DNA of 64,000 bases from Photobacterium leiognathi (lineage in GTDB: Bacteria > Pseudomonadota > Gammaproteobacteria > Enterobacterales > Vibrionaceae), in NCBI RefSeq assembly GCF_030685535.1, contig NZ_CP131601.1:2604001-2668000 (forward strand). Direction: 5' to 3'. Both the position numbers and the translations under genes were made by a program. The first letter of the stretch is position 1; each line of letters starts with the position of its first letter. The notes beneath the pieces were generated by a model. The model was not told the DNA's origin. It ran no database searches and saw only the letters and a list, made by a program, of their open reading frames with translations. Shown here in pieces: positions 10,802-34,295 of the stretch.

Positions 10802-10804
10802 TAG

Positions 10805-10840
10805 AATTGTTTAGTCTCACATGAGGCTAAACAATTTCTT
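10805..10840 (+). terminator. Terminator after integrase 1
   Basis: AATTGTTTAG and CTAAACAATT pair perfectly across a 12-nt loop, followed by TCTT. It starts 4 bp after the integrase stop. Confidence 0.75.
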
Positions 10841-11091
10841 AATCAACTATCCCACGATACAGAATGGCTTAAAAACAACCAAACAGTAATATTAGTCAAA
10901 AATAAATAGACTTGACTTTAATCATAAAAACAAAAAATAACTCAGTCCAATAATATTCAAGAACATCTAATAACGTCCAAACCTAATCAAAAATAACCCT
11001 TTATAAACATATACTTAATCAGAGTTACATATTGACACTTCCATTTAATGGCTTCACCATAAAATAATACTCATACAACGGTGTATCCATT

Positions 11092-12530: not shown

Positions 12531-14078
12531 TCATTTGTTCAATTTCAATTTAGACAACCACAAACTAAACCATTCAGGTATATCATTAACATTTAAAAGT
12601 AAGTCTTTATTTATAATCGAAATTTTTTTACCTTTAACCTGTATACCTAAACTTTCAGCGTTTTCAATTATTTTCTTTATAAAAAAAGCAAATATATTAG
12701 CTGGATTTTGGCATGTCCTAGCTGAATATTTTTCAATAATATTACGTAATGGAAGTTTAGATTTAGCCGATTGAGAAAGCTTTTGACTCAATACACCTTG
12801 TGTTATACCCGATTTATTATCACCAATTAAAACAACAATGCGCTGCATTGTTGAATAGTAAATATCAAGATCACTTGATACACTACTAACAGAATTTGCA
12901 TGATAAGTTTCAATAATGTCAGCTACGGATTTATATACAAACTCATGAGCCCAATTAACATGTGGTAACGTCAAAACAAATTGATTACCAACAGCAAGAA
13001 TACTTGCTATTTTGCTAACCATTTCGTACATCCTACAGTATATCCCACCAAATATCTCATGATTTAAAATTTCATCGTTGTCATAATACTTTTTTACTTT
13101 ATCTAACAACTCTATTGCATCTTCAGTTGGTTCAACCGCACTTTTACTGTTTTTGTTAATTTTAATAAGTTCATCTAATACATTTATATCTATATCGCGT
13201 TTATAGCTATCTCTTAACGGTGATCGCCTATCGGCTTTAATAACAATACAACGAGCCAGTAATCCAGAATCAAGGTTCTTATCATTGATAAATCCATTGA
13301 TTTCCCTTGGCGTTGATGTCGCCATTAATGATAAGTAAGGGTTTCTTATTCCTTCACATTTTAACTTTTCAAACTTTTCTTCTAATTCATTACAACAACG
13401 TTCAACCTCATCTGAGTTATTTTTAAACCGCTTAGCAATGCTTTCTTTTTCTGCTTTCAAAATATTATGTAACTCTCTAATTCGAATACCATTTAGTTTA
13501 ATAATCTTCCCTGTATAAGCAGCCAATAACTTGCTTTCAATTTCTCTAATATATGCTGGTGAGCTTTTATCTTGAATAAGCGTAAAAAAAGAATGTGCTT
13601 CATCATTGATATAAAGAGTTTTATTGTCACTTTCTAACAAATTGAGAGTTAAATCTTTTTCTGAACCAATTTTATCAAAGATATGATGGCCTAAGCCAAT
13701 AGTGGATGCGACCTCATTAACATACTCTTGATGGGCATCTTTACCTGAACCAGTATCACCAATAACAATTGAAAATAAATTGAGTTTTAGTCCTGTTGAT
13801 GTTTCCGTTTTATCAGCAACTAACGATAATAATGTCAACGCGGCTAAACATGCTAATCTAGGCTGTGGGCGCTTTTGATGAGCAAGCACATCCTCAGTGA
13901 TTATATTGGCAAAGTCAGGTAAATTTATTAAAGAAAATCCTTTATTACTAGCAAATGGACGGGCAGCTAAACCAACTCGATTTACTAATGATATTAGTTC
14001 TTGATCTCTTGTTGATAAAAGTGTTTCTTCTTTTCTTTCAGTCATCTCAATTATTTTTTCAATATGATTATTCACCAT
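12531..14078 (-). CDS. DUF3987 (YfjI-like) P-loop protein
   Basis: A 515-aa protein of the DUF3987 family, frequent in P4/CP4-type islands and satellites and exemplified by E. coli CP4-57 YfjI. It is thought to be a helicase or primase-associated ATPase for element replication; its function is not experimentally settled. A Walker A motif GDTGSGKDA is at residues 107-115. A Walker B-like stretch LYINDEAHSFF follows. An RHH-like helical tail fills the C-terminal third. It reads in the same direction as the candidate nickase 37 bp upstream, likely one operon. Confidence 0.8.
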   Translation of the reverse strand: MVNNHIEKIIEMTERKEETLLSTRDQELISLVNRVGLAARPFASNKGFSLINLPDFANIITEDVLAHQKRPQPRLACLAALTLLSLVADKTETSTGLKLNLFSIVIGDTGSGKDAHQEYVNEVASTIGLGHHIFDKIGSEKDLTLNLLESDNKTLYINDEAHSFFTLIQDKSSPAYIREIESKLLAAYTGKIIKLNGIRIRELHNILKAEKESIAKRFKNNSDEVERCCNELEEKFEKLKCEGIRNPYLSLMATSTPREINGFINDKNLDSGLLARCIVIKADRRSPLRDSYKRDIDINVLDELIKINKNSKSAVEPTEDAIELLDKVKKYYDNDEILNHEIFGGIYCRMYEMVSKIASILAVGNQFVLTLPHVNWAHEFVYKSVADIIETYHANSVSSVSSDLDIYYSTMQRIVVLIGDNKSGITQGVLSQKLSQSAKSKLPLRNIIEKYSARTCQNPANIFAFFIKKIIENAESLGIQVKGKKISIINKDLLLNVNDIPEWFSLWLSKLKLNK

Positions 14079-14115: not shown

Positions 14116-15153
14116 TCATTTTCGTAAATGATAATTTTTCAATTCATTTAGCGGCTTATCACATTTTGAATCAATTCGTAGTTTAATCTCATTCACTGAT
14201 TGGCTCACAGCTTTCATTAAACGAGGACTTGTTTTGGGAATTTCTTCAAGACAGTTATTTAAGTCATCTATTGTTTTATTCAAATGATGGTATTGCCTAT
14301 ATACCTGAAAATCATTTTTTTCATCATATGCTCTAAGCAATTTATTGGCCTGTGCCATAAATTTATTTATCAACTTAGATAATATAATAATTTTTTCTTT
14401 TTCATTTTTTATATTCTCCCGTAATTTAATAGTTTGATGATATTTTTCATCTATGACTTCATAAGCATGTTTAGCTTTAATCTTCCACGATGGAACTGTT
14501 TTTCTATTCCTATACTTCTGCTTTGTGAGTATAAAGTCTCTATAATATACCCAATCAATGCCACAATACTTCTTAGTTGCCATATTAAATGACTCTTTAA
14601 CAGCATTAGTTACACATTTTCTCTGTAAATTTCTCAAGTATATATTATCAACAGTCACCTTTCCGACTAATAAATGTATATGATCGCCTTTTTTTTCTTG
14701 CTGATGTAAAACTGCTCTGGATATATTGATTAATTCTTTTTTTTCAATATTACATGCATTTGCAATATCAGCTAAACAATGTTCAACAATTAATGTCCAT
14801 TGTTTAAGTGTTGGGGAGTATATTTTTGGCAGATTTAATGTAAACTCTACTGCAAATGACTCAACTTTCCTTCCTTTTTCCTGATTTAAAGTTTTACATT
14901 TATTGTATCTATATACAAAATTCGCTATATGCTCTACCGTTTTTTCACTACCTAATAGTTCTATAATTGCTGATGTATTTTTATGATTAGAATGATCTTT
15001 ATCTGTAAGATAAAACTCTCTCTTTGCTAACCCTTCAGCTTTATTTTTTACAACTTCAGTTCTTACAGTCCAACCTTTCATTTGATGTTTATTTAAATAT
15101 ACAGCAAATAAAAAGATCAACTTAAAAAACTGACGTTTTCTTGAAAAGATCAT
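14116..15153 (-). CDS. Candidate HUH endonuclease (relaxase or rolling-circle initiator-like)
   Basis: A 345-aa protein I cannot assign firmly. A His-hydrophobic-His motif sits in KKGDHIHLLVGKV (H158, H160), preceded by a beta-strand-like stretch ISRAVLHQQE, which resembles the metal-binding HUH motif of plasmid Mob and Rep proteins. Possible catalytic tyrosines follow in KKYCGIDWVYYRDF. The C-terminal third is charged and coiled-coil-like. The start could instead be the ATG at 15081 (MKGWTVRTEV), since the first 24 residues are hydrophobic and look unlike the rest. It is cotranscribed with the DUF3987 gene, suggesting a replication or mobilisation module. Confidence 0.55.
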   Translation of the reverse strand: MIFSRKRQFFKLIFLFAVYLNKHQMKGWTVRTEVVKNKAEGLAKREFYLTDKDHSNHKNTSAIIELLGSEKTVEHIANFVYRYNKCKTLNQEKGRKVESFAVEFTLNLPKIYSPTLKQWTLIVEHCLADIANACNIEKKELINISRAVLHQQEKKGDHIHLLVGKVTVDNIYLRNLQRKCVTNAVKESFNMATKKYCGIDWVYYRDFILTKQKYRNRKTVPSWKIKAKHAYEVIDEKYHQTIKLRENIKNEKEKIIILSKLINKFMAQANKLLRAYDEKNDFQVYRQYHHLNKTIDDLNNCLEEIPKTSPRLMKAVSQSVNEIKLRIDSKCDKPLNELKNYHLRK

Positions 15154-15500: not shown

Positions 15501-15743
15501 ATGAAATATATGACAATGACAATAATAATATTATTATTATCATCTCCAACTTATTCAGCAAGTTTAATATTGAAAGGTGAAATAACAAATCCAACATGTA
15601 ACATCGCATTGGAAAAACTAATCCTGACCTCAAATAAAATTATAAACAATTGTTCTAAAGATTTTTCAAAAAAAGAAAAACACATCTATACTAAAGAAAA
15701 TAAAATTATAAAAAGAAAGATAATAACCATAACTTATTTATAG
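15501..15743 (+). CDS. Small secreted pilin-like protein
   Basis: An 80-aa product. Residues 1-20 form a signal peptide (MKYMTMTIIILLLSSPTYSA). The mature part begins SLILKGEITNPTCNIAL, the typical start of a type 1-family pilin with its first disulphide Cys, has a second Cys at NNCSKDF, and ends RKIITITYL, like the closing beta strand of pilins. The central pilin body is missing, so this is either a natural mini-pilin or an internally deleted pilin gene. The ribosome site AAGGGTG precedes the ATG. It stands alone, 7 kb from the pilus operon. Confidence 0.6.
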   Translation: MKYMTMTIIILLLSSPTYSASLILKGEITNPTCNIALEKLILTSNKIINNCSKDFSKKEKHIYTKENKIIKRKIITITYL

Positions 15744-15827: not shown

Positions 15828-16559
15828 CTAATCTTGGCTCCAAATTATTTCACTTATATTTAATAACCAACCAGGGTTATCTAACGCAATATCATGACCA
15901 TCAAATTTATTTATTATAACAGGAATATTCCATTTTTCAGCAATAGCTTTTGTTGCTTTAAAATTAACTAAATTGTCATTTTTCGAAGCTATAAAGAATA
16001 ATTCACATTTTGGTTTTGATATAGAGAAATTCTTTGCTGCTAATAATTGGCGAAAAAAATTAGATATACTTATAGGAAAGCATTTACTATAATTAGACCA
16101 TTCATCTATAATTTTTTTGTTTAATGGCTTATTAGATACCATCTTATAAATAACTTCTTCTCTTTTTATTGACGGATAATAAAAAATAGCTTTTATTATT
16201 CTAAAGTAATTTTTGGGTCTTAATCTATGATAAAAACGACTAAAACTACTAGCACTAGTATTGATACATATTATTGACTGAACTTCTTCTGGATAAATCT
16301 CAGCCCATTTTAACCCCACCATTCCTCCCATTGAAATACCAAATATATAAGCTTTACCTTTGCCTTTTCTTTGTTTTCTAATATTTTCAACCATATTAGA
16401 AATAGAGTAAGGAGATACTTCACGAAATAAAAAACCATTTCCAGGTATATCAACACAAGTAATTATGGAATTTGGGAAAATATTTTGCATTTGTTGAGGG
16501 AAAGAGCCCCAATGCTCTTTACTTCTAAATAAGCCTCTTATTAATATTATTTCATTCAT
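15828..16559 (-). CDS. Alpha/beta hydrolase
   Basis: A 243-aa alpha/beta-hydrolase fold protein. The nucleophile elbow is GISMGG with Ser76; acid Asp195 is in SKNDNLV and His222 in GHDIALDNP, a complete triad. The N-terminal EIILIRGLFRSKEHWG forms the oxyanion-hole strand. No signal peptide, so cytosolic. The substrate is unknown; carboxylesterase, thioesterase or lipase-like activity is possible. It is an island cargo gene with the same AT-rich codon use as its neighbours and no evident operon partner. Confidence 0.75.
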   Translation of the reverse strand: MNEIILIRGLFRSKEHWGSFPQQMQNIFPNSIITCVDIPGNGFLFREVSPYSISNMVENIRKQRKGKGKAYIFGISMGGMVGLKWAEIYPEEVQSIICINTSASSFSRFYHRLRPKNYFRIIKAIFYYPSIKREEVIYKMVSNKPLNKKIIDEWSNYSKCFPISISNFFRQLLAAKNFSISKPKCELFFIASKNDNLVNFKATKAIAEKWNIPVIINKFDGHDIALDNPGWLLNISEIIWSQD

Positions 16560-17196: not shown

Positions 17197-20100
17197 TTAA
17201 CTAATTATATTAGTTAATGGATAACCATTAACAGATGGAATTAAAATCGTATTTGGTTTTGAAACTGGTTTGGTTGATAATATTTTATCATCACACACTA
17301 CCGTTGCATTAACAGGGTTATCAGACTCTGCAACATTAACATGAAACTTATTCATGAATTTTTCGGATAAACGTTGACCGGGCAACAAAAATTGCTTCAT
17401 TTGACCACTTTCTAATTCAACATCCAAATGACAACTATTCGACTGAATATATTCGCTATCATCTGCATAGGTATAACCTCGGGAGCCATGCAATGCCGGA
17501 TATATATAGCTTGTTAGCTTTTCTTCCGGATCGTAATACCCTACTAATGTTGTCACTGGCACACCAAATTTTTCTGGTTTTTTGGCAAAAGTCTTTGTCA
17601 TATCGCGCACCCATTTTATACCATCAGAGTGATAAACATACCTATCTGGACTAGCAACCATTTGACCATTTACATAGAAGAATAGCTCATATCCTGATTC
17701 ATGATTAATCATTAATTCACTTCCAGCTGGAACATCTTTAGCTTCAGGCATCGTAGAATCGGTTAAATAATCATTTTGTTTAGAAACAACAGCAATTGAC
17801 TTATGAGTTTCAAACATTTTTGCAATATATGAAATAGGATCTTTAACCTTATTCAAGTCATTTTGATCAATTTTGAAAAAATAATCGACTGCATTGCTGT
17901 AACTGAATGGTTCCATTTGATGAGTCATATTATTCCACTTTAAATAGCCAGTCGGTGAATCCTCAGAAAATACCATACGATCTTCCATTACTCGCTGCAT
18001 CTTTGTGCTTGAGAATGGGGTATACATGGTATAACGATTATCAGGATACATACTGCCTTCACCACCGTACATAGCATCAGTACCAAACTGGAAACCATGC
18101 CATGGCTGAACACAAATCTTCACTTCTGCTGGGTTTTTCTTCGGATCACCGATACACGATGGCTGATTCGACGGGTTCTTATAGAAGTTAGGAATAAATA
18201 CATTTTTATCGCTATCCCATCCCCATGTCGAATCTTGTTGATCTGCAGGATGGTGTATACTCATGTCATAGCCTTCACTATGACTCAGTTCGATACCATG
18301 CCCCGCTTCGTGGCTCATTTCATTACCGATAGTATCAGTTAAGGTAACAATACCACCACCGCCAGAGCCACCATGATCTTGATTCCATGGTCCTTCAACG
18401 ATTTTGTCACCTTCCCTTTTATAAAGATAACGACCAATCGATGTATGTGCCGTTAACATTAGCGCAAGATTTGAATGAGCATCTTGACCAGGACCATCAG
18501 AAGCATTGAAACCAAAGTTAGCACTATCAATACCAATTGAAATCAGTGATTTAGCAATATCACTACGCATATCACCTTCTTGCCAACCACCAATACCTGG
18601 TGAGTAATCCTTATAAAGCTGACCATTTGGCATCATGATTTCATCGAAGGTGATGCCTTGATAGCGACTGACAACAAGACGACTAATAGGTAATGTTTGA
18701 TAATATTCTCGTGGCAGTTCAAGATCTTTGGCAAACTCCATTGTATCTTGTCGCTGCGTCAGCATACCAATATCAATCGTGTTCATATACAACACCGTTG
18801 GCGCACCCACGTTGATGTTATCTAGTGTTCCCGTCTTACCATCATGAGAAAAATCCAAACGTAAACCGTAATGCATCCATGATGCTGGAATTTTTGCCGT
18901 CCAGTAACCATGTCCATAGGTCACTTTAGAGATAGCTAAATCTCCAGCAGTAAACCACTGACCACCGACGTTATAAAACACAACCGTCTGACCAATATTG
19001 ATCCCCATATATGCATTACGCTCACCTTTGGAGACACTATTGGCATATCGCACATCGGTTGTATATGGGCTATCTGCTTTTAAAATCAGATATTTACCAT
19101 CAAACTTTGGATTAAAATCAAGATATAGTTTATGCAAACGCAACCACCGGGTCGAATGCAGAAACACACCGTCTTTACTTTCAATAAGTTGTTGGTCTAA
19201 ATATTCTGTATTGCCTTTTTCACCTTCACTAGCAACTTTTGCTGTATCAATTGCAGTTAGCTTTGAAGGATCAAGATTGAAATCAACCTTGGTTAAATCC
19301 ACTTCAGTGTTGACCCCCGAAATAGGCGGGATCTTATATGGGCGCTCCAATACTAATGTACCGAGCTTCGAACCATTAGCGTCATAACCTTCCACTTTCA
19401 CCGGTAAGGTTTCATCAAAATCAGCATCTTTTGCTTTAAACATCACTAAAGCACTACGTTCACCAATAAGATGCTGAGTCGACTCCGCTGGTGTATGAGT
19501 GATCTCACTACCATTCACATTATGCAGATGCACAATATCTGCTTTATGGTTTTCTGATGGGATCACATGGTTCTGTGCAAACAACACGGTTGCTTCTAAG
19601 TTACCATCAAGATCGCTTGGGTAATTATTGGTATTAAAAGCAAGAGGCGGAATAGAACCTACATCTTCATAGTTAACTTGGATCTGGCAATCGGCATACA
19701 CATCACTCACAAGGTATTTATTTTCAACCAGTGAACCATCACAACCTGTAATACTTTTTAGCTTGTTTTTCGAGTCAAACTTAATGGTAAATTCACCATT
19801 ATCACCAGCATCAACCGTCATTTTTTCAGGGCTGATCGTACCAATGCCATTCACATGGGTTGTGATCTCAAACAGCCCTTTATTAACATGGATTTTCAGT
19901 GTGGTATCAGAAGAAAGCTTACCATCACTGGCTGTCACGGTTGCGGTAAAATCTCCCACCAGCTCGATATCAGGCGTTGCAGTGATCACACCTGTTTTAC
20001 TATCAATCATTAACCATGCTGGAGCATTTGAAAGGCTGTAAGTCAGCGGATCATTATCTTCATCACTTGCTGTCGCTGTAATATCCATCGTATTACCAGC

Positions 20101-21093
20101 CGTCATGGTTTGAAGTGCAAAAGGCGTCCACGTTGGGGCTTTATTCACATCCTCAACAACGATCTGAGCGGTCGATGTTACCTGTTGTTGACCATTTGAT
20201 GCCGTTATCGTGAACGTAAAATCACCGTTATCATCACGACCTGGCGTACCAGATATAACACCTGTTTGAGGGTTAATCTGCATCCAACTTGGCTGTCCTG
20301 ATAGTGTGAAATGCAATGGCTTACCGTTGGGATCTTTCGCTGAAATTTGTGCAACGAAAGGTTGGCGCGTACGTGCAGTCATCTTACCTGCAATAGTAAC
20401 AACAGGAGTTGGGTTGACTACTGTGTTAATCATCACAGATGTAAAGGCTTTAGCTTTACCATCAGAGACTTCAATTTTCAAAGCATGCTTGCCAACAACC
20501 GTTGGCTTACCCGTAATAATACCTGTTACAGCATCTATTTTTGCCCAAACAGGCGCGTTAATAAGACGATAAGTTAAACGGTTATTGTCTTTATCGTTAG
20601 CCGATACAGCAACAGTAAATGGCGTATTAACTACAACATTCTGAGTAGTTACAGGCAAGATAGTTGGTGCGTGGTTACTATCACCAATGACAACGCTAAC
20701 TTGAATACTATTGGTTTGTTTACCGTTAGTTGCCGTTACCGTGATCGTGTAATCACCGTTGTCGTTTTGATGTGGCGTACCTGATAACTCACCCGTATTA
20801 GGATCAATCGTTAACCAACTTGGGTTATTTGAAATCGAGTAAGTTATTACGGCACCTTTATTGGCGGACGCCTTAATTTGACCACGTACAGGCTGTCCTG
20901 TCATGCCCGTTACAATACCCAATGAACCAAAAATAGGTTTTGACGGCGTAACGTCAATAATAGGTTTTTTGTTATCAGTACTAGAATCAGAAATATCAGG
21001 TTTTAAATTTGTTATATTAGATTCAGTATTATCATGGCAACCAGAAATATTTATTAATATTATTGAAGCTAATAGTGTTTTTTTTAGTGCCAT
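17197..21093 (-). CDS. TagA/StcE-like M66 zinc metalloprotease lipoprotein with Ig-like repeats
   Basis: A 1298-aa exported protein. The signal peptide ends in the lipobox ISGC, so Cys19 should be lipidated. Four Ig/cadherin-like repeats of the putative-Ig (He_PIG) type span about residues 54-410, each with a TYS/RLxNAPxWxxIDxxTGxIxGxP pattern. A linker domain is followed by the M66 peptidase. The zinc site HEAGHGIELSH starts at H928. Downstream, ADQQDSTWGWDSDKN and FIPNFY are strongly StcE-like, as are NRYTMYTPFSS and TGYLKWNNMTHQMEP. StcE and V. cholerae TagA cleave mucin-type glycoproteins, so a surface mucinase is the likely role. The Ig repeats distinguish it from StcE. Confidence 0.9.
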   Translation of the reverse strand: MALKKTLLASIILINISGCHDNTESNITNLKPDISDSSTDNKKPIIDVTPSKPIFGSLGIVTGMTGQPVRGQIKASANKGAVITYSISNNPSWLTIDPNTGELSGTPHQNDNGDYTITVTATNGKQTNSIQVSVVIGDSNHAPTILPVTTQNVVVNTPFTVAVSANDKDNNRLTYRLINAPVWAKIDAVTGIITGKPTVVGKHALKIEVSDGKAKAFTSVMINTVVNPTPVVTIAGKMTARTRQPFVAQISAKDPNGKPLHFTLSGQPSWMQINPQTGVISGTPGRDDNGDFTFTITASNGQQQVTSTAQIVVEDVNKAPTWTPFALQTMTAGNTMDITATASDEDNDPLTYSLSNAPAWLMIDSKTGVITATPDIELVGDFTATVTASDGKLSSDTTLKIHVNKGLFEITTHVNGIGTISPEKMTVDAGDNGEFTIKFDSKNKLKSITGCDGSLVENKYLVSDVYADCQIQVNYEDVGSIPPLAFNTNNYPSDLDGNLEATVLFAQNHVIPSENHKADIVHLHNVNGSEITHTPAESTQHLIGERSALVMFKAKDADFDETLPVKVEGYDANGSKLGTLVLERPYKIPPISGVNTEVDLTKVDFNLDPSKLTAIDTAKVASEGEKGNTEYLDQQLIESKDGVFLHSTRWLRLHKLYLDFNPKFDGKYLILKADSPYTTDVRYANSVSKGERNAYMGINIGQTVVFYNVGGQWFTAGDLAISKVTYGHGYWTAKIPASWMHYGLRLDFSHDGKTGTLDNINVGAPTVLYMNTIDIGMLTQRQDTMEFAKDLELPREYYQTLPISRLVVSRYQGITFDEIMMPNGQLYKDYSPGIGGWQEGDMRSDIAKSLISIGIDSANFGFNASDGPGQDAHSNLALMLTAHTSIGRYLYKREGDKIVEGPWNQDHGGSGGGGIVTLTDTIGNEMSHEAGHGIELSHSEGYDMSIHHPADQQDSTWGWDSDKNVFIPNFYKNPSNQPSCIGDPKKNPAEVKICVQPWHGFQFGTDAMYGGEGSMYPDNRYTMYTPFSSTKMQRVMEDRMVFSEDSPTGYLKWNNMTHQMEPFSYSNAVDYFFKIDQNDLNKVKDPISYIAKMFETHKSIAVVSKQNDYLTDSTMPEAKDVPAGSELMINHESGYELFFYVNGQMVASPDRYVYHSDGIKWVRDMTKTFAKKPEKFGVPVTTLVGYYDPEEKLTSYIYPALHGSRGYTYADDSEYIQSNSCHLDVELESGQMKQFLLPGQRLSEKFMNKFHVNVAESDNPVNATVVCDDKILSTKPVSKPNTILIPSVNGYPLTNIIS

Positions 21094-21263
21094 AAAATTC
21101 TCTTAACAATCAAGCAAATGAATATGTCCAACAAAATAGCTTTATTATTGGATATTTTATTAATTTTGATTAACTATATAATAATCAAGTACTTATCAAA
21201 TAAATAGATATAATAAAAAACAAGGTAAGATTAGCCTCCTCTTTGATATTTATTTAAACCGAG

Positions 21264-22161
21264 TTACTCAGCTTTATTTTTAAGTTTATTTTTATACTCT
21301 TTAATTGTTAAGTTTTTTACTTGCTTAAATTGAATGTCGGCATTAGTTCTAGAATTAAAACCACTTTCATAACATAACTCTATTATTGTTTTGCTAACAT
21401 TATTTTTTATCTTTTCAGCTAGTAAATTAACTCGTAAGACTTTTACTACTTCATTGTATTTTTTACCATTATCATGAAAAATTTTCTGGATTTTACTTTT
21501 AGACATAAATAGTTGATTAGACAGTAAATCCAAGTTCAAACTATTATTCATGATATTTTTTTCAATAAATTCATAAATCTTTTTTTAACTCATATTCTGA
21601 ACGAGTTTCGACCTTCTTTTTCAACGATTTAATTTTCATTAAGTTGATTATCGCATTAATCTTATATTCTAAGTCTTCATCACTAACTGATATGTTCAAA
21701 GCGATATCTACAATAACAGGATTATCAATAACTACCACATCATTAATCATATAGACATTTTTATTAAAAAAAATCTTAGGAATTAAAATTAAATATTTTT
21801 CTTTTTCGTCAGAAAACTTCAATGATAATTCAGATGTTGGGTTAATTAAAATAGCACCACCATATGATAATTTCCCTTCACTCGAATTACTATTCCATGA
21901 GATGGAACTATAAGAAGCAATAATCATATAGTAATCATTAGGAAACAATTTATGAGAATCTCCTGACAAAGTTATTACTTTATAACCTTCAGTAAAAGAT
22001 AATGAGCTCATAGTTGTATATGAATAATTATTTACTATATTAGATTCATATTTATAGCTAAAATTTTGATTACTATTCCATTTATCTGATGAATAAAAGA
22101 AAGCATTTTCTGTTAAAAGATAATGTTGATAAAACATGTTATTGGCTAAAGTACTTAACAT
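21264..22161 (-). pseudogene. AraC-family transcriptional regulator, split by a frameshift in A7
   Basis: Two open frames make one regulator. 21571-22161 encodes about 190 aa of N-terminal sensor-like domain. 21264-21551 encodes an AraC-type helix-turn-helix domain (LDLLSNQLFMSKSKIQKIFHDNGKKYNEVVKVLRVNLLAEKI, with a second helix pair in ELCYESGFNS). The N-terminal frame stops just after a run of seven A (21580-21586 on the minus strand). Removing one A gives ELKKIYEFIEKNIMNNSLNL and joins both parts seamlessly. It lies between the tagA-like gene and the divergent pilus operon, so it probably regulates one or both when in frame. Alternatives: inactivation, slippage or a sequencing error. Confidence 0.8.
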
Positions 22162-22718
22162 AATAATTAACCTTACACGATAATAACTTCATGAATTAAA
22201 AAATAATTCTCGATTTAAAGATGACTTAAGAGTAATAGCTTTATTTTGCTACTTATTTGTATTAGTTTTGAATCTAATTATACTTATTATTTTTGTCTAT
22301 ATTTTTATTGTTATTTACGCAATTTTAGATTTATCTTGTTTGTTTTTTATTATTATCAATTTATCACTAACAAAAAAAAAGTAAACTTAAAAGTTTAACT
22401 TTATTTAAAAACATAATTGAAAATTATGTTACCAATAACGATACCATTTCTGAATAAAATCCAAACGAGACACAGTATCAATATAGATTAAAGCTCAATA
22501 AGTATTGCTTAATAACCAAAAAAAGAAAAAACACGTAAAAAAAAACAAATAACACCCACTTCAAAACTTTTAATTAGACAATGTTCATTTTCTCAAGTTA
22601 AATAAAAAAGGATTTAAAAATCCTCTTATAATAAATAAGAAATAAGAAATAACACGAAGAAATATCATTAAATTTCTTTTAAAAAATTTAATTTATTGAA
22701 AATCATAATGGATAAAAA
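22162..22718. promoter_or_regulatory. Intergenic control region of the pilus operon
   Basis: 557 bp of very AT-rich DNA between the minus-strand AraC gene and the major pilin. It must contain the pilus promoter and probably AraC-regulator sites. Short A and T tracts and a tandem AATAAG/AAATAAG stretch near 22633-22650 are visible; no specific operator could be identified. Confidence 0.5.
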
Positions 22719-23258
22719 ATGAATAAAAAAATCACTGCTTTAGCTTTAGTATTAGGTGCTTGTATTTCAACTTCAGCAATGGCAGACGCAAACACAGGTA
22801 CAATTAATTTTATTGGTTCTGTTTCCGATACAACTTGTGATTTTATTGGTGAACAAAATGGTGCACAAACTACTACTATTGATTTAGGTGCTGAAACCGT
22901 AGCAAATGTAAATGCAGGTTCAACTTCTATTGTTGATTTTTCACTAGTAGGTAAACAAGCAGATGGTACTGCTTGTACTGTTGAAGCTGGAAAATCAGTA
23001 GATATTTCTTGGATTCCAGCATCAGGTACATGGGACTCTAATGGCTTACAAAATACAGGTACTGCAACAAATACAGCTATTAAATTAATGGATAAAGATA
23101 GTAAACCTTTTTCAGCTTTACGCACTACTGTTAATTATTTAGCCGCCGATGTAACAGATGGAGCTTTACCTTTTAAAGGTCAATTAGTTAAAACTGGTGC
23201 AGCAGCAACAGCTGGTACAGTAGTTTCAGCAGTAAAATTTGCAGTTTCTTATAAATAA
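22719..23258 (+). CDS. Major fimbrial subunit (type 1-like pilin)
   Basis: A 179-aa exported pilin of the chaperone-usher class. The signal peptide MNKKITALALVLGACISTSAMA is followed by DANTGTINFIGSVSDTTCDF, the usual beta strand with the first Cys; the second Cys is in GTACTVEAG. The C-terminus ends VVSAVKFAVSYK, like donor-strand-accepting pilins. Codon use is smoother than in later operon genes (many GGT, GCA), consistent with high expression. A terminator hairpin follows, so most transcripts should stop here, favouring the major subunit over the assembly genes. Confidence 0.92.
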   Translation: MNKKITALALVLGACISTSAMADANTGTINFIGSVSDTTCDFIGEQNGAQTTTIDLGAETVANVNAGSTSIVDFSLVGKQADGTACTVEAGKSVDISWIPASGTWDSNGLQNTGTATNTAIKLMDKDSKPFSALRTTVNYLAADVTDGALPFKGQLVKTGAAATAGTVVSAVKFAVSYK

Positions 23259-23273
23259 TTATAATTAGGTACA

Positions 23274-23295
23274 AAAGGCCTCATTAGAGGCCTTT
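23274..23295 (+). terminator. Intra-operon terminator after the major pilin
   Basis: AAAGGCCTC-ATTA-GAGGCCTTT is a perfect 9-bp stem just after the pilin stop, followed only by a short AT stretch. It probably attenuates transcription into the usher gene. Confidence 0.75.
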
Positions 23296-23307
23296 AATAT
23301 AAATCAG

Positions 23308-25701
23308 ATGAATAAAAAAAACAGATCACTTAAGTTAAATAAAATCACCTATTCTTTTTCATTGATTTTTGCCTCTTTATTCTATGGTAATGTTAAAGCC
23401 GAAACTGAGTTAGATTTTTCTTTTATTCAAGGTAAAAACACTCAAATTCCTGAGGTATTAAAAAAATCACCAGGCAATGTTCCTGGGAATTATTTACTAG
23501 ATATAATTTTTAATAACAAAAGAATAGGTAAGAAAAGTTTAACAATTACAAAAGATGAAATTCAAAATCTATGTTTATCTTCAGATTGGATAACGTCATT
23601 AGATCTGCCAATAAATTTTAGTAAAATAAAAAAATCTTATGATAAAAACAAAGGTTGTTATAATTTATCATTAAATAAAGGTTCAACCGTACAATTTAAC
23701 TATAATAAGCAAGAATTAAAAATAAACATACCTCAATATTATATGTTAAATAATTCTCATTTAGAAAAGTGGGATTATGGTTCCACTGGATTTCGGTTGA
23801 ACTATGCACTAAATGCAAATAAAAGTTTCAACAAATCAACATCAGATATTAGTAGTTTATACGGTAATTTTGATCTTAACGCTAATTACGGAGAATGGGT
23901 TTTTAATACAAAAGTTAGTGCTCTTAGTAATGAAGGGATAGAAAGTCCAGATCTTACTTTATCTAAAGCTATAAAATCAGTTCATGGTGATTTTATTATT
24001 GGTAAAAGTATAACTCAATCAGCCATTATTTCTGATTTTTCATTTTATGGTGCATCTCTACGTTCTAATGCATCAATGCAACCATGGCTAAACAGAGGAT
24101 ATGCTCCTGTTATTAATGGTGTATTAAATTCAAATGCTTTGGTTACAATTAAACAAGGGGAGTATATTTTATATTCAAAAAATCTTCCTGCTGGCCCTTA
24201 TTCTATTACAGATTTAGCACCTGTCTCAAATGGTGATCTTACTGTTAATGTTGAAGAAAATAATGGTAATAAATCAAGTACAACTTATCCCGTAACAACA
24301 TTACCAACATTGCTGAGAACTGGGGATTTTAATTATAACTTTGCAACAGGTATTAGAAGTAATAGCATTAACAATGACGGTATTTTTGGTTTAGCTTCAT
24401 TAGATTATGGCTTTAATTTTGGCACTGCAAATATAGCAACTATTATACATCCTAAATATCAGAGTATTGGTTCAGGATTATCTATACCAATTAATAATTT
24501 AGGTGCTATTTCAGCTAGTATAAATATGGCTTTAAGTCACTATGATCAATCAATTGATGGAGATCAAACAGGGGTTAGTGCAACTTTAAAATATGCTAAA
24601 GATTTCGGTGAAAACACAAATTTACAATTACTTTCTTATCGATACACAGGTAAAGGTTACACTGATTTTAGTGATTTTAATGCTAAAAATATTGTTGATA
24701 TAAATGAAAATAAAAGTAGTCGTTACGAAATACAGCTAAATCAAAATTTAGGTTCATCATATTTAAATATGTCAGGTTGGAGACAAGATTATCGTAATGG
24801 TGGTAATGATATCGGTGTGAATTTATCACTATCAGGTACAGTCAAAGGTGTTTCTATTGGTTTCAATAACTCATATTCTAAAACAAGAGATAAAAATTAT
24901 GAGTATAACTCTTCATTAAATGTAAATATTCCATTTAATTTATTTGAAAAAAACCAAGTTCTTAACAGTAGCGTAAATTACAATTCAAATAGTGGAACAT
25001 CATTTAACAATGGTACATCATTAATTATGAATGATAATTTATCAACCACAGCTAACTTAAATGTTGCTAAGAATCAAAATACTGCATCTATTTATACTAG
25101 TGTTAAATTTAATAATGTACAAACGAATTTTTCAGTGTCTCAAAGTAACAATAGTACAACTATTGCAACTAGTGCATCAGGTACTGTTGCTGGAACGAAA
25201 AAAACAGGACTTGTTTTTTCTAACGAACAACAAAACACTATTGCTATTGCCCATATAAAAGATATGAAAGGTATTAGATTTAATAATTCATCAAAGACAA
25301 ATGACAATGGTAATACTATTATACCTTTGAGTAGTTATCAAAAAAACAATATAGCTATTGACACTAATAATATCCCAGAGGATATTGAACTATTAAATAC
25401 CAATTATAGTATCACTCCAACCAATAAAGCTATAATTGTTAGAGATTATAATTATATAAAAGTTTCAAGATATTTATTACGCATTTTATCTAAGAATGGT
25501 GAACCAATACCAATGGGGACTGAAATAACTACGGATAAAGATTTAACTGTAGGTGTTGTAGCAAATAATGGTGTAGTTCTTATTAGTTTATTTGGTAAAA
25601 ATAATAACCTTAAACTTAAGATAAATAAGGACGTATTTAATATTGACCTAAAAAATATTAACCCAGGTATAGAAAAAGTAAAAAACATCAAGTTGAAATA
25701 A
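23308..25701 (+). CDS. Fimbrial outer-membrane usher
   Basis: A 797-aa FimD/PapC-family usher that forms the outer-membrane pore for pilus assembly. Signal peptide at about 1-31 (cleavage near VKA-ETELDFSF). The N-terminal chaperone-binding domain opens ETELDFSFIQGKNTQIPEVL and contains PGNYLLDIIFNNKRIG. The beta-barrel and plug region has GYAPVINGVLNSNALVTIKQ and LPAGPYSITDLAP, classic usher motifs. It is slightly shorter than E. coli FimD. It starts 12 bp after the attenuator hairpin. Confidence 0.93.
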   Translation: MNKKNRSLKLNKITYSFSLIFASLFYGNVKAETELDFSFIQGKNTQIPEVLKKSPGNVPGNYLLDIIFNNKRIGKKSLTITKDEIQNLCLSSDWITSLDLPINFSKIKKSYDKNKGCYNLSLNKGSTVQFNYNKQELKINIPQYYMLNNSHLEKWDYGSTGFRLNYALNANKSFNKSTSDISSLYGNFDLNANYGEWVFNTKVSALSNEGIESPDLTLSKAIKSVHGDFIIGKSITQSAIISDFSFYGASLRSNASMQPWLNRGYAPVINGVLNSNALVTIKQGEYILYSKNLPAGPYSITDLAPVSNGDLTVNVEENNGNKSSTTYPVTTLPTLLRTGDFNYNFATGIRSNSINNDGIFGLASLDYGFNFGTANIATIIHPKYQSIGSGLSIPINNLGAISASINMALSHYDQSIDGDQTGVSATLKYAKDFGENTNLQLLSYRYTGKGYTDFSDFNAKNIVDINENKSSRYEIQLNQNLGSSYLNMSGWRQDYRNGGNDIGVNLSLSGTVKGVSIGFNNSYSKTRDKNYEYNSSLNVNIPFNLFEKNQVLNSSVNYNSNSGTSFNNGTSLIMNDNLSTTANLNVAKNQNTASIYTSVKFNNVQTNFSVSQSNNSTTIATSASGTVAGTKKTGLVFSNEQQNTIAIAHIKDMKGIRFNNSSKTNDNGNTIIPLSSYQKNNIAIDTNNIPEDIELLNTNYSITPTNKAIIVRDYNYIKVSRYLLRILSKNGEPIPMGTEITTDKDLTVGVVANNGVVLISLFGKNNNLKLKINKDVFNIDLKNINPGIEKVKNIKLK

Positions 25702-25712
25702 GAGATTTATTA

Positions 25713-26405
25713 ATGAAAAAAACTATTTTTGCTCTATTATTTATGAGTGTTTTTATATCTTACCCATCATTTGCTGCATTTATCTTAAATGGAACTAGGT
25801 ATATCTATAATGAAAATGATAAAAACATATCAATAACAATAAGTAACGAATCAAAAGAAACATATGGTGGACAAGTTTGGGTCGACAATATAAATGAATC
25901 AGATAATAGTGTTAGCTTTATTGCAATACCTTCATTTTTCAAGGTTGATGGAAATGATAATCAAATAATTAGAATAATGAAAACATCTGAAGCATTACCA
26001 AAAGATAGAGAATCTATTTTTTGGTTGAATGTGCAAGAAATACCTCCCAAAAGTAAAGATAAAAAAAGTAATATAATTGTTGTTGCAATCAATACTAAGG
26101 TTAAACTCATTTATCGACCTGATAACCTATCAATAAAAAGATTAAATGCAGAGAAAAGAATAAAACTTATCAACGATAATGGGAATTATTATTTAGAAAA
26201 CCCTACACCTTATTACTTTGCAATAACAAAAATTATTGTTAATGAAAAAACAATCTCTTTAAAAAATAAAGTTAGTAATAAACTTGCTATTTTCGCACCA
26301 AAAACTAAAGTGAAACTGACAAGTATCAACTTAAATTCAAAATCAAAAATCAAAATTGATGCAATTGATGATTATGGTGCAACTAACCAATACGAGATAA
26401 ATTAA
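25713..26405 (+). CDS. Periplasmic pilus chaperone (PapD/FimC family)
   Basis: A 230-aa boomerang-shaped Ig-fold chaperone that caps pilins in the periplasm. Signal peptide at about 1-21 (ends SFAAFILN). Conserved stretches: GTRYIYNENDKNISITISN, GGQVWVD, FIAIPSFFKVDGNDNQIIRI, ESIFWLNVQEIPP and NTKVKLIYRPDNL, the last carrying the subunit-anchoring Lys. It follows the usher by 11 bp, in one operon. Confidence 0.92.
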   Translation: MKKTIFALLFMSVFISYPSFAAFILNGTRYIYNENDKNISITISNESKETYGGQVWVDNINESDNSVSFIAIPSFFKVDGNDNQIIRIMKTSEALPKDRESIFWLNVQEIPPKSKDKKSNIIVVAINTKVKLIYRPDNLSIKRLNAEKRIKLINDNGNYYLENPTPYYFAITKIIVNEKTISLKNKVSNKLAIFAPKTKVKLTSINLNSKSKIKIDAIDDYGATNQYEIN

Positions 26406-26406
26406 A

Positions 26407-26899
26407 ATAGAAAAAATTCTAATTTTTTTTAATTATAATTAGTTCAAATTCATTTGCCTCTCCTATTAGTTTTAATACTAATGAATCAGGTATAATAAAT
26501 AATGCAACCATACCAATAACAATAAATATTGTTAAAGCTACATGTACTATTAATAATGGTTTAGGTATACCAACTTTAATTGATTTAGGGACAGTAGGAA
26601 TTAATAATAATAAAAAGATTGATATACCTATTGAATTTTCAAACTGTAATAATGTAAATAATATAGAATATAATTTTAATTCCATATTAAATTATAGTTT
26701 TTTAGGAGCAGGTAAATTCAAAACATCTAATTCAAACATAACTCTAACATTATATAATGGAGATAGTGTAATTAATAATTATAAAGGTACATTAAGCACA
26801 GTTAATGGAAACGTATTATTCCCATTAAAGATTAATGTTTTAGGAACAAAAGCAGGTGCTTATCAGAGTGCAATTAATTTATCACTTATATACACATAA
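26407..26899 (+). pseudogene. Minor pilin gene, out of frame at a T8 tract in its signal peptide
   Basis: No ATG-initiated frame covers this stretch, but 26462-26899 translates as a clean pilin: PISFNTNESGIINNATIPI, a Cys in VKATCTINNG, a second Cys in FSNCNNVNN, and the closing strand KAGAYQSAINLSLIYT-stop. Upstream, the frame reads FFLIIISSNSFAS, a signal-peptide core and cleavage site. Deleting one T from the run of eight (26423-26430) joins it to ATA-GAA-AAA-ATT-CTA, giving a proper signal peptide but with an ATA first codon. So the gene is frameshifted, with an unusual or lost start. It sits exactly between chaperone and adhesin, where a minor subunit is expected. Confidence 0.75.
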
Positions 26900-26903
26900 T
26901 ATT

Positions 26904-27890
26904 ATGAAATTAAAAATATTAATAATACTTTTAGCTTTTCCTTTCTATAGTTATGCTTTCCAACCCATTAAATGGGCAAGTTCTAATCCTACAATTGAAG
27001 CATTTCCAGGATTAAATACAGTAAATAATTTTAATCAGAATATTGGTTTTTGGAGTGCAGGTTCGTATACAGCTTTAGGCGTTTCTTCACATTTAGAAAA
27101 TTTACCACTTCGTATTGTAAAAACAGAAACATCAGGTTTAACAAATGGGTTAGCTTACTATGGTGATACTTCGATTTGGAACTTTGATGGTTATTTAACG
27201 CAACCATTAAATCAATTTAATATAACAACACCAAGTATTAAATTATATAAATTAAATAATCAAATAGCTATAGGGTTTGTTGTTTTTATAAGAAGTTTTA
27301 ATAGTCAATATGCAGCTGATGCATCCATACCTATTAGTTATAATATTCCAGAAACATATGCTAAAGTTTTAGCCATAAATGCAATCCCAATAAAAATAGG
27401 AGATATACCATTACAAGATCAATTTAAGCCTTATGTTTTTAATAAAACTATAAATGGTGTTTTAAAATTTTCAGGAAATGGTTCAGTAATAACATCTCCT
27501 CCGATAACATTTAATGTTAATATTAATCTTCTTCCCCAAGTATGTAATGTTACATTTGACTCAAATAAAATTGACTTTGGTACCATTACTGACTCTGAGC
27601 TATCAACGGGGAGAATAATTAAACAATTAAATTTACAATCAAGTTGTGATAATATTTATATAAATAATGTTGATATGAAGATACAGAATTTAAACAATGG
27701 AATGATTTTTTCAAATGATAAATCTATTGGATTTAGACTTACAGATAAAAATAACAACCCATTGACAAATAATCAAACTTTATCTTCCAATGTGGATAAC
27801 TATGAAATCAATATCACACCATTTAAAAATAATGATAAATTATATGGAAATCATAATGCATCATTAAATTTAATGTTTACTTATAAATGA
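26904..27890 (+). CDS. Fimbrial tip adhesin-like protein
   Basis: A 328-aa two-domain FimH-like protein. I chose the ATG at 26904 because it opens a signal peptide (MKLKILIILLAFPFYSYA) and lies 4 bp after the minor pilin stop; the longer frame from 26856 overlaps that gene. The N-terminal about 190 residues form the putative receptor-binding domain (FQPIKWASSNPTIEAFPG); no sugar specificity can be read. The C-terminal pilin domain has Cys in LPQVCNVTFDSNKIDFGTI and LQSSCDN and ends ASLNLMFTYK. Confidence 0.85.
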   Translation: MKLKILIILLAFPFYSYAFQPIKWASSNPTIEAFPGLNTVNNFNQNIGFWSAGSYTALGVSSHLENLPLRIVKTETSGLTNGLAYYGDTSIWNFDGYLTQPLNQFNITTPSIKLYKLNNQIAIGFVVFIRSFNSQYAADASIPISYNIPETYAKVLAINAIPIKIGDIPLQDQFKPYVFNKTINGVLKFSGNGSVITSPPITFNVNINLLPQVCNVTFDSNKIDFGTITDSELSTGRIIKQLNLQSSCDNIYINNVDMKIQNLNNGMIFSNDKSIGFRLTDKNNNPLTNNQTLSSNVDNYEINITPFKNNDKLYGNHNASLNLMFTYK

Positions 27891-28081
27891 TAATTTTAAA
27901 CATGTTTTTTTTAATATTGATGATTGTAATTATAATTTTATCCGGAGGACATCTAATAGTAAACAAATACATTCAAAAGTCAATATTTCTTATTATTTTG
28001 ACTTTTTTGTATGTTATTTTATCTGGTTTTTTATTTGGTATCTTACTATCAGAATATTTGACGTTTTTTGTACTAAAATAA
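27887..28081 (+). CDS. Small two-helix membrane protein at the end of the pilus operon
   Basis: A 64-aa product with two hydrophobic segments (about 2-21 and 31-60) and little else. Its ATG overlaps the adhesin stop in an ATGA junction, implying translational coupling, and a strong terminator follows 2 bp after its stop. This placement supports a real gene although no family is recognised. A role in pilus assembly or retention is only an inference. Confidence 0.6.
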   Translation: MIILNMFFLILMIVIIILSGGHLIVNKYIQKSIFLIILTFLYVILSGFLFGILLSEYLTFFVLK

Positions 28082-28530: not shown

Positions 28531-29046
28531 ATGAAAATATCAAAAATTTTATTATGTTTAAGCCTTTTAACCAGCTGTCAAACATTTGCCGATCAATTAG
28601 ATATAAATATTAAAGATTTAAAAACAGGGAAATCTATTGGATATGTAAATGTCAAAGAAAATGTTTATGGTTTGATCTTTACACCTCACCTTAAAGATTT
28701 AAAACCAGGTATTCATGGTTTTCATATCCATCAAAATGGAAGCTGCCAAGCAATTGAAAAAAATGGGAACGTTATTTTAGGTGGTGCTGCAGGTGGTCAC
28801 TATGACCCATTTAATACTCACAAGCATGGTTTTCCATGGGGTCGCGATAATCACAGAGGTGATTTACCTGCTCTTTATGTTAATAATGATGGTATAGCTA
28901 ATATGCCAGTTATTGCTCAGCGATTAACATTAGATGAATTGAAAGGTCATGCTATAATGATTCACCAAAACGGTGACAATTATTCTGATTCACCCAAACC
29001 GTTAGGTGGCGGTGGCCCTCGTGAAGCTTGTGGTGTTATTAAATAA
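28531..29046 (+). CDS. sodC: Periplasmic Cu,Zn superoxide dismutase
   Basis: Dismutates superoxide in the periplasm. 171 aa with a signal peptide ending near FA-DQ (a Cys at position 16 could also be read as a weak lipobox). Copper ligands H65, H67, H90, H145 and zinc ligands H90, H99, H108, D111 are present in GFHIHQNGSC, GGHYDP, HKHGFPW, NHRGDLPAL and MIHQNGDNYSD; disulphide Cys72-Cys167. The loop organisation matches the bacterial (P. leiognathi, Haemophilus) branch. The ribosome site is GAGAGA. Island-borne SodC would protect against host oxidative burst. Confidence 0.96.
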   Translation: MKISKILLCLSLLTSCQTFADQLDINIKDLKTGKSIGYVNVKENVYGLIFTPHLKDLKPGIHGFHIHQNGSCQAIEKNGNVILGGAAGGHYDPFNTHKHGFPWGRDNHRGDLPALYVNNDGIANMPVIAQRLTLDELKGHAIMIHQNGDNYSDSPKPLGGGGPREACGVIK

Positions 29047-30284: not shown

Positions 30285-31024
30285 ATCAGAAAAGATATGA
30301 TTTATAGTTTTGAAATTACACTAAATAAATATAGAGACTTTGAATTTTTTATCAAGCTCACTAAATAATGGTAACGGTTTAACAGGTTGGACAGTTACGA
30401 TTTCCAGAACAGAAAACGTAACTGTTATTATCTATTAACTGTTAACAGTTAGAGCCAATGCAAGCAAGAAGAGACTTTTCGAAGATTTTACTTAAAAAAA
30501 ATTGCTTTTTTTGGTTCGAATTATAATAACAAAATTTACAATTTGTTTTTTAGATAGATAATTCCTCAGATATAAAGCAAAAAATCAGAATTTAAATCGA
30601 TAATTAGGGAAATTTTCAGACCTATAATTTAAAAACACACCCATTCCATTACCATCCTATTAAAATCAACACCTTAAGAGCAAAATTAAGAATTGATAAA
30701 AATACGAAGCAGTAAATAACAATAAGCTATCAATTTAAAGTATAAAAATCACAAATTAGAAATAAAGAGGAATAATACTCCAAAACCATTGATAAAAACA
30801 ATAACCACATGATTTAAAACATTAAATTATAAATTTTGCATTTCTATAGTGTCTATATTCAAAACTAGACACTATATATAGTGTACTAAATTTCAAATTT
30901 AGTTATAACATATACCTAATTATTCTATAGGTTTTTTACTCTCTTATTTTGTTTATATCATAAACAAAAAAATTAATAAGAATAATACCTCTTCCTTCAT
31001 AACTAAAATTAATGACACTTTAGA
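30285..31024. other. Gene-free AT-rich stretch with palindromes
   Basis: No convincing gene. It contains a 16-bp perfect palindrome TAACTGTTAACAGTTA at 30436-30451 and a 9-bp inverted repeat at 30847-30874. A short frame near 30367 (GLTGWTVTISRTENVTV then stop) could be the tail of a gene destroyed by the IS30, but this is weak. Confidence 0.35.
30847..30874. promoter_or_regulatory. Operator-like inverted repeat
   Basis: TAGTGTCTA and TAGACACTA are perfect inverse copies separated by 10 bp, followed 7 bp later by a third, partial TAGTGTACT. It looks like a regulator-binding site, but no adjacent gene start explains it. Confidence 0.35.
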
Positions 31025-31045
31025 TAATAAAATGTATGGTCCGCC

Positions 31046-31257: not shown

Positions 31258-32283
31258 TTATGACTGCGATGCAGTCTTAAACGCTTGGCGGTGGTATAAC
31301 ACCGCCCAAGCTATTCTTGCTAATTTGTTAGCCAATGCGACAACAACCACATTGAATGGCTTACTGGCTCTTAAATCTACCAGCCATTGTCCGAAGACTT
31401 TACCCGTTGTCTCTAACCTTGATAATACAGCTCTTGCGCCATGAATGAATAATGTCCGGAGATGTTTATTTCCTCGTTTACTCACCCCAAGTAACTTTGT
31501 TTTACCTCCCGTAGAGTATTGTCGAGGCACTAACCCTAACCAAGCAGCCATATTCCTTCCATTTGAAAAGTTACTGGCGGCACTAACATCTGCCACACAT
31601 AGGGTTGCTGTTAAATCACCGATGCCAGGCACAGTTTTTAATAACTTAGCCAATTCATGTTGCTCAGCTAGCTGTTTCAACTTCGTATCTTGTATTTTTA
31701 TCTGCTCATTAAGATACAAATAATGTGCGTGAATTAAGCTTAATTCGTACATAAGACTTTGTGGAAGAGTTTGATATTTTTGGTCTGCTATCCACTGAAA
31801 AAGCATCTTCATTTTCGCATGTCCTGTAGGCAAGCTCAGTCCAAACTCTAACAATATCGCTCCGATACGAGACATACAGGCTGTTCGCTCCTTAATAAAA
31901 CCATCACGGATACGATGAATGACAGCAATGACTTGTGCTTCTTCTGATTTAACAGCAACAAAGCGCATGGAAGGTCGACTTGCTGCTTCAGCGATAGCTG
32001 CAGCATCAATGAAGTCATTTTTATTGCCTTTCACATAAGGTTTTACATACTGAGGAGGAATGAGTTGAACTTGATGCCCAAAATCAGCACATTTACGGGC
32101 TAACCAATGTGCACCACCACATGCTTCAAATGCGATAGTGGTGGTTTCTAAATTTGAGAGAAACTTTAGAAGTTGGCTTCGATTATATTTCTTACGTAGC
32201 ACCTCTTTACCTGCGTAATTGTGTGCGACAGCATGAAAGCAGTGTTTACCTAAATCGATACCTAAGATGTGGATAGTAGACAT
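31258..32283 (-). CDS. IS110-family transposase (DEDD recombinase), copy 1
   Basis: 341 aa from the ATG at 32281-32283, chosen over a GTG nine bases upstream because GAGGTG sits at proper distance. N-terminal DEDD RuvC-like domain: HILGIDLGKHCFH (first Asp), TTIAFEACGGAHWLA (Glu) and GNKNDFIDAAAIAEAA (two Asp). C-terminal transposase_20 domain: VPGIGDLTATLCVADV, AAWLGLVPRQYSTGGK and the serine-containing GVSKRGNKHLRTL. The protein is identical to copy 2, so transposition was recent. Confidence 0.95.
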   Translation of the reverse strand: MSTIHILGIDLGKHCFHAVAHNYAGKEVLRKKYNRSQLLKFLSNLETTTIAFEACGGAHWLARKCADFGHQVQLIPPQYVKPYVKGNKNDFIDAAAIAEAASRPSMRFVAVKSEEAQVIAVIHRIRDGFIKERTACMSRIGAILLEFGLSLPTGHAKMKMLFQWIADQKYQTLPQSLMYELSLIHAHYLYLNEQIKIQDTKLKQLAEQHELAKLLKTVPGIGDLTATLCVADVSAASNFSNGRNMAAWLGLVPRQYSTGGKTKLLGVSKRGNKHLRTLFIHGARAVLSRLETTGKVFGQWLVDLRASKPFNVVVVALANKLARIAWAVLYHRQAFKTASQS

Positions 32284-32403
32284 ATGGTTCACCTCTTTGA
32301 AAGCCTACCCTAAGCCTAACGGCTTAGGATGAGGCGGACCATATAATTAAGCCTTTGAAGTAAAGTCCAAAGGCTTTTAAAATTTAGACAGAACAAATAC
32401 ATA

Positions 32404-32610
32404 TTATTTATTCTTTCTTTTATTTTCTCGCTCTAATAACCACTGATCAATTTTATCTTCAAACCAACCGACTGATCGCTCGCCCAGAGGAACTGATCGT
32501 GGAAAGTCACCTTTGGTCATTAATGCATAAATACTACTTCTAGATAGGCCAACTCGATCTTTGACATCTGGTAGTCGTAAAATCTTTGATGGTTTCTGAT
32601 TTATCATCAT
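32404..32610 (-). CDS. alpA: AlpA-family excisionase/regulator
   Basis: A 68-aa winged-helix protein with the AlpA pattern ILRLPDVKDRVGLSRSSIYALMTKGDFPRSVPLGERSVGWFEDKIDQWLLER. AlpA activates integrase expression or acts as an excision factor; in E. coli CP4-57, inserted at the same tmRNA gene, it controls excision. The first Met may be skipped in favour of the second. Here it lies near the right end of the island, divergent from a small broken gene. Confidence 0.9.
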   Translation of the reverse strand: MMINQKPSKILRLPDVKDRVGLSRSSIYALMTKGDFPRSVPLGERSVGWFEDKIDQWLLERENKRKNK

Positions 32611-32967: not shown

Positions 32968-33080
32968 TAAATTATCCCACTTAATTTAGTCAGTGATTTT
33001 GGATTGGTACTTGGAACTAAATCTCAGGAAATCAAACACAAAGTCAACCTAATATCATGTTTTAGTTAACTTTTAATTTT

Positions 33081-34249: not shown

Positions 34250-34295
34250 CCACCAAATTCGTATACGAAGGCGTCCTAGGACGTCCAGAGAGCCC
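34250..34295. repeat. attR: 46-bp direct repeat
   Basis: Exact copy of 9392-9437. Partial ssrA identity extends a little to the left (GCCAGC, then one base missing relative to ssrA), marking it as a duplicated ssrA 3' end without the rest of the gene. Confidence 0.93.

Follow-up and report, generated by a model that had tools for sequence, protein, structure and literature searches.

A genomic island at the 3′ end of ssrA in Photobacterium leiognathi carries an M66/TagA protease, an AraC-family regulator gene and a chaperone-usher pilus

Vibrio pathogenicity island 1 (VPI-1) of Vibrio cholerae is described as lying 3′ of the gene for transfer-messenger RNA (tmRNA), between 30–31-bp repeats, and as carrying an integrase, TagA, ToxT and the toxin-coregulated pilus (TCP), with which TagA is reported to be co-regulated (PMC7574455). 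TagA is an M66 protease; it and StcE are reported to cleave mucin-type O-glycoproteins and to be exported by type II secretion (PMC7542363). Among chaperone-usher pili, Pef has been classed as a kappa fimbria (PMC9238391). Here we analysed 64,000 nucleotides of Photobacterium leiognathi (the window; contig NZ_CP131601.1, positions 2,604,001 to 2,668,000) and found a genomic island at ssrA, the tmRNA gene, that brings together an M66/TagA protease, an AraC-family regulator gene and a chaperone-usher pilus. We think it rather probable that this island integrated into chromosome 1 at the ssrA 3′ end and helps a light-organ symbiont to colonise host surfaces. The following features delimit it (window coordinates, strand).

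9028–9397, +: ssrA (tmRNA), the integration target (ARAGORN, Rfam RF00023)
9392–9437, +: attL, 46-bp exact direct repeat (repeat comparison, blastn)
34250–34295, +: attR, 46-bp exact direct repeat (repeat comparison)
9560–10801, +: tyrosine integrase 1, domains Arm-DNA-bind_3, Phage_int_M and Phage_integrase (Pfam)
11092–12297, +: tyrosine integrase 2, in tandem, identical domain set (Pfam)

The ends and the integrases were observed directly. attL begins within the final bases of ssrA, and the two repeats lie 24,858 bases apart from start to start (24.86 kb); they are not a product of chance, because the surrounding alignment has an E value of 8e-27. GC content falls to 0.24 inside the island, is 0.37–0.41 over the protease gene and 0.39–0.45 in the flanks. 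With integrase genes, att repeats, atypical composition and a sporadic distribution, the element has the features of an ssrA-integrated island; integrases with this domain set go by the label 'P4-type'. We read 49 of 51 sister ssrA sites (G042 and G046 were left out), six of them over less than 18 kb, including the nearest relative, P. lucens (G022), at 2.8 kb. A related integrase is present at 27 of these 49 sites, and ssrA is therefore an integration hotspot in the genus. No description of the P. leiognathi island was found in the open-access literature, a search that left subscription papers and supplements outside, in agreement with the suggestion of an earlier note on this DNA, made from the sequence alone, that the island is undescribed. 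The main text of PMC10763503 does not mention pili, fimbria, a genomic island, M66 or a metalloprotease. The main cargo is as follows.

17197–21093, −: M66/TagA-domain protease, 1,298 amino acids, with an Ig-like stalk (Pfam; StcE 3ujz, E 2e-157)
17974–18927, −: M66 catalytic domain of this protease, HEAGHGIELSH from residue 928 (Pfam, sequence)
17293–17580, −: TagA domain of this protease, PF12561 (Pfam, E 3e-33)
21264–21551, −: C-terminal half of the regulator with the AraC DNA-binding domain, in a different frame from the other half (PF12833, E 1e-7; score 32.5 bits, cut-off 33.6)
21571–22161, −: N-terminal half of the regulator, in its own frame (94% to the intact relative P0002)
22719–23258, +: major pilin, PefA-like (NCBIfam PefA, E 4e-16, below the model cut-off)
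23308–25701, +: usher of the PefC/AfrB family (NCBIfam NF011760, 787.9 bits, equivalog cut-off 752; also over the Pfam cut-off)
25713–26405, +: periplasmic chaperone (PF00345 and PF02753, over the cut-offs)
26423–26899, +: minor-pilin-like open stretch (tblastn with the minor pilin of a relative as query: 34% over 93 residues, E 5e-8)
26904–27890, +: large last fimbrial subunit; the listed frame opens at 26856 and the ATG was picked by eye (PF00419, E 3e-5, 24.6 bits against a cut-off of 25.6)
28531–29046, +: SodC, a Cu/Zn superoxide dismutase (Pfam)

The identities of these genes were likewise read directly. The M66 domain of the protease (PF10462) matched at E 2e-60, with 204.6 bits against a cut-off of 20.6, and contains the HExxH zinc motif (HEAGH, 928), which is kept in the alignment of residues 484–1293 with StcE. 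Its N-terminal stalk comprises four Ig-like repeats (Pfam), and its start, judged by eye against the lipobox rule, resembles a lipoprotein signal. The sole Pfam match of the pilin was sub-threshold and to an unrelated family, and its relatives at 58–71% adjoin related ushers. The last subunit is likely to be the tip adhesin; it had no significant match to the last subunits of the two nearest pilus relatives, and its predicted structure had a mean pLDDT of 39. Within the genus, the nearest ushers (57%) are those of G029 and G010, the latter probably P. damselae ATCC 33539, and the G010 usher contig carries what appears by eye to be a ParA-like gene. The earlier note had proposed the same combination of protease, regulator and pilus on an ssrA island, and it was confirmed by Pfam, NCBIfam, the 46-bp repeats and the integrases; the SodC that it had added to the set was also found, beyond the end of the stretch that it described.

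Two small proteins were seen beside this subject. An 80-amino-acid, secreted-looking protein at 15501–15743 is like a shortened fimbrial subunit and has a 35% relative near the G020 usher. A similar-looking protein of 89 amino acids follows the P. damselae pilus operon, but no significant match to it was obtained by tblastn.

The window lies on contig C3 (3,269,131 bases) of an assembly of 4,750,881 bases, which we infer to be that of strain ATCC 25521T; contig C1 is taken as chromosome 2. PMC10763503 describes ATCC 25521T as a symbiont from the light organ of the ponyfish Eubleekeria splendens. The source genome belongs to a luminous mutualist: a family search gave a LuxC match of 388 bits on C1, although the LuxC family also matches 9 of 14 control genomes. 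Because the strain is a ponyfish light-organ symbiont, 'pathogenicity' is the wrong frame for this island. Under the colonisation reading, integrase-type recombination would have brought the island into chromosome 1 at the 3′ end of ssrA. The protease would be exported and cut O-glycosylated host mucins, the Pef-type pilus would attach cells to the host surface, and SodC would add protection against oxidants. Provided that the cell makes an intact AraC-family protein, this regulator would govern both the pilus genes, which diverge from it, and the protease gene that comes next on its own strand. If the cargo does act together, host-surface colonisation becomes testable in a fish light-organ system.

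Several observations weigh against this reading. As assembled, the regulator is split into two open frames of different phase, a split not mentioned in the earlier note, and the minor-pilin-like stretch is broken near the expected signal peptide. The island may also add little, since the strain holds three further M66 genes besides the island copy and a second SodC (64.5%) on chromosome 2. In G029 and G010, no M66 or island-regulator match lay within 18–20 kb around the usher. The two frame interruptions, together with a 221-amino-acid transposase-like gene with a helix–turn–helix domain only and an IS110 insertion, could mean that the island is a decaying remnant in which the breaks in the regulator and minor pilin are real and control of the pilus is lost. 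We consider this quite improbable. The ATCC 25521T assembly is described as built from nanopore data, with Medaka and Homopolish used for polishing and short reads named for two other strains only (PMC10763503); single-base frame errors are to be expected in a nanopore-only assembly, and a homopolymer run lies near each of the two interruptions. Moreover, an intact 298-amino-acid relative of the regulator, P0002, 94% alike over the N-terminal half, is present in a P. leiognathi record that is probably strain Mot.1.1, reported from a Siphamia light organ (PMC10763503), and the large genes of the island are open.

The earlier note had framed the trio as a set and suggested a search for the combination across Vibrionaceae. 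We searched 329 Vibrionaceae genomes (one genome per species in these sets), calling M66 at E 1e-20 and Pef-type ushers at E 1e-100. M66 was found in 78 genomes, a Pef-type usher in 22 (6 of which pass the family cut-off) and both in 12. Among the 14 controls, M66 matched two at the default threshold and none at E 1e-20, the usher family matched one, with none over the cut-off, and SodC matched four. Only in the P. leiognathi island do the two form a close pair on one contig, with a gap of 2.2 kb (5.4 kb between matched starts). In the other 11 genomes with both, they share a contig four times, at 48, 176, 333 and 339 kb, and lie on different contigs seven times; because contig ends are near both the usher and one of the M66 genes of G020, closeness is possible there. 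The island cargo was present at none of the 49 sister ssrA sites within the stretch read, and the sequence compared extended as far as the shared right-hand flank at only 20 of the 49. Of 106 M66 neighbourhoods, 80 were taken in, 19 of which span less than 15 kb; in these 80 there was no usher or island-regulator match at E 1e-3, and only one chaperone-like match. A conserved trio is not supported by these data; as far as seen, close M66–usher linkage is particular to the P. leiognathi island.

These data also fit a rival view, that the protease, pilus operon, SodC and hydrolase are chance neighbours at an island hotspot, independent of one another and without a shared function or regulator. 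Linkage in 1 of 329 genomes, absence of the cargo from the sister sites as far as they were read, M66 neighbourhoods without the partners and the mosaic composition described below are all in line with it. By contrast, surface-colonisation genes lie within 12 kb of one another with a regulator between them, and an M66 gene occurs somewhere in 10 of the 11 Photobacterium genomes that carry a Pef-type usher (4.2 expected, P 1e-4, not corrected for relatedness), so that the two functions tend to share Photobacterium genomes; outside Photobacterium the co-occurrence was 2 against 2.3 expected. We regard chance assembly as possible but doubtful. The earlier note had named independent coming and going of protease and pilus as a pattern that would count against it. 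The rare linkage, the differing composition and the differing nearest relatives point towards such independence, and the co-occurrence within Photobacterium speaks against its being complete.

The mosaic composition was observed directly. GC at third codon positions is 0.31 for the protease gene, 0.33 for its chromosome-2 copy and 0.08–0.21 for the regulator and pilus genes. The protease thus has a core-like composition whereas the pilus and regulator are much more AT-rich, and the set therefore has at least two sources. The protease would have diverged from a sister gene on the chromosome and carry a slot-B module of its own (see below), and the pilus would come from a Photobacterium group of Pef-like operons that is also present on a plasmid-like contig.

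The regulator and protease genes lie on one strand, 170 bp apart, with the pilus genes divergent across 557 bp. ToxT boxes (TTTTGAT) numbered none in the 557-bp region (0.57 expected) and one in the 170-bp region (0.14 expected). Across the 329 genomes, the N-terminal half of the regulator matched its own genome and, very weakly, two other places (E 3e-4 and 6e-4), and it had no match in the plasmid collection. It had no PDB match at E 1, and the C-terminal half matched ToxT only at E 0.03; the halves were searched apart, so weak kinship could escape. We considered whether the regulator is a ToxT relative and detected no sequence kinship beyond the AraC domain. The structure predicted for P0002 had a mean pLDDT of 37.

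The relatives of the protease point to exchange of parts between copies, and two stretches of the island gene are relevant.

18979–19281, −: slot A, residues 605–705, replaced in some relatives (identity matrix, difference test)
17599–17916, −: slot B, residues 1060–1165, island version matched nowhere above 47% among the copies compared

Of the proteases compared, the chromosome-2 copy comes closest (88.8% DNA identity), and the likeness spans the gene and stops at its edges. Close M66 relatives (52–88%) occur on C1 of the same genome, adjoining ATP synthase genes, as well as in three other members of the genus: P. lucens, P. phosphoreum and an uncultured Photobacterium. No pilus or regulator match lay beside these relatives, although for P. 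lucens the contigs extend over just 4 kb. At L045 7818–16565 (C1), two adjacent M66 genes follow the ATP synthase genes, and the second diverges widely in the stalk and slots. A recent whole-gene duplication of the chromosome-2 protease is not favoured, as protein identity is 88.1% between the island and chromosome 2, 87.2% between the island and P. lucens and 91.7% between chromosome 2 and P. lucens. Stretches with 95–100% DNA identity between protease copies may reflect gene conversion. Bootstrap values of an M66 tree were unsettled, and the tree was not used for branching order.

The island and chromosome-2 copies differ at 22 of 316 positions in the catalytic domain, 12 of 96 in the TagA domain and 58 of 106 in residues 1060–1165 (P 4e-24). 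This slot is not simply fast-evolving, because chromosome 2 and P. lucens differ there at only 7 of 108 positions. Compared with the chromosome-2 copy, P0073 of P. leiognathi differs in slot B at 73 of 107 positions, and P0076 of P. leiognathi subsp. mandapamensis differs in slot A at 64 of 87 and in slot B at 1 of 108. The M66 copies of this group thus look modular, with two slots of about 100 residues replaced between otherwise near-identical proteins, and recombination is the simplest reading of the replacement. P0073 shares its first 50 residues with the island copy (96%, against 78% with chromosome 2), and an island-type protease lineage may therefore exist in another strain. The StcE beta-sandwich model matches slot A or slot B in several copies; the island copy did not match this model with the threshold relaxed to E 5, and the fold of its slot B is predicted from the StcE alignment. 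Slot exchange may affect mucin binding. In a bolder form, the idea is that a symbiosis-colonisation island re-creates the VPI-1 layout by convergence and that beta-sandwich slots of the mucinase are swapped like cassettes between copies and strains, altering the host glycoproteins gripped; we put this forward tentatively, as unlikely. If true, M66 module exchange would be a route for changing mucus specificity without loss of catalysis.

The remaining features belong to the rest of the island.

12531–14078, −: DUF3987, phage-primase-like protein (Pfam; PHROG primase, E 3e-45)
14116–15153, −: 345-amino-acid protein, HxH motif (HIHLL) by eye (35% relative in L056)
15828–16559, −: alpha/beta hydrolase (Pfam Abhydrolase_1, E 5e-12)
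31258–32292: IS110 transposase gene inside the island (Pfam)
32404–32610, −: excisionase/regulator-like protein, presumably of the AlpA-like kind (PHROG, E 4e-11)

The 345-amino-acid protein matched no family at E 0.01 (Pfam, PHROG), with a single weak match at E 0.04; its sequence would suit a role in replication or mobilisation. Five island proteins searched against defence families gave no match. The same-family integrases stand in tandem at 9560–12297, a comparable series occurs 3′ of ssrA in P. phosphoreum (L080), and together these suggest stacked islands. The IS110 genes at 31258–32292 and, outside the island, at 42081–43115 are identical over 1,035 of 1,035 bases. About 720 bp at 30310–31032 are 75% alike to L052 4797–5515, and neither stretch has long open frames. 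The L052 stretch lies next to the excisionase-like gene that a different ssrA element carries, and in L052 the halves separated by the IS110 gene of the window are contiguous. Immediately inside attR, at 33071–33996, a 140-bp unit is repeated 6.6 times with 95% matches; it occurs at a single place in the genome and had no match in the other compared loci.

Compared with Pef and Afr fimbriae of the kappa class, the island has an usher above the PefC/AfrB cut-off and a PefA-like pilin, but its usher is 39–42% identical to Salmonella PefC and sits on a chromosomal island. Compared with StcE and TagA, the protease has the catalytic and TagA domains in common, whereas it differs in its long Ig-like N-terminal stalk and divergent slot B. 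Like VPI-1, the island is placed at ssrA with direct repeats and an integrase and carries an M66/TagA protease, an AraC-family gene and a pilus. Of the VPI-1-like logic proposed in the earlier note, the site and this layout stood, but a conserved unit was not supported. The pilus is chaperone-usher in P. leiognathi and type IV in VPI-1, with no type IV pilin family among 18 island-region proteins scanned (Pfam), and the regulator is not detectably ToxT. The P. leiognathi island also holds SodC and a hydrolase and resides in a mutualist; other VPI-1 genes were not searched for. VPI-1 thus serves as an analogy only: the island may work like VPI-1, but membership is not established. Should the cargo work as a unit, then two members of one family, a mutualist and a pathogen, would each have brought this trio of functions to ssrA along a path of its own.

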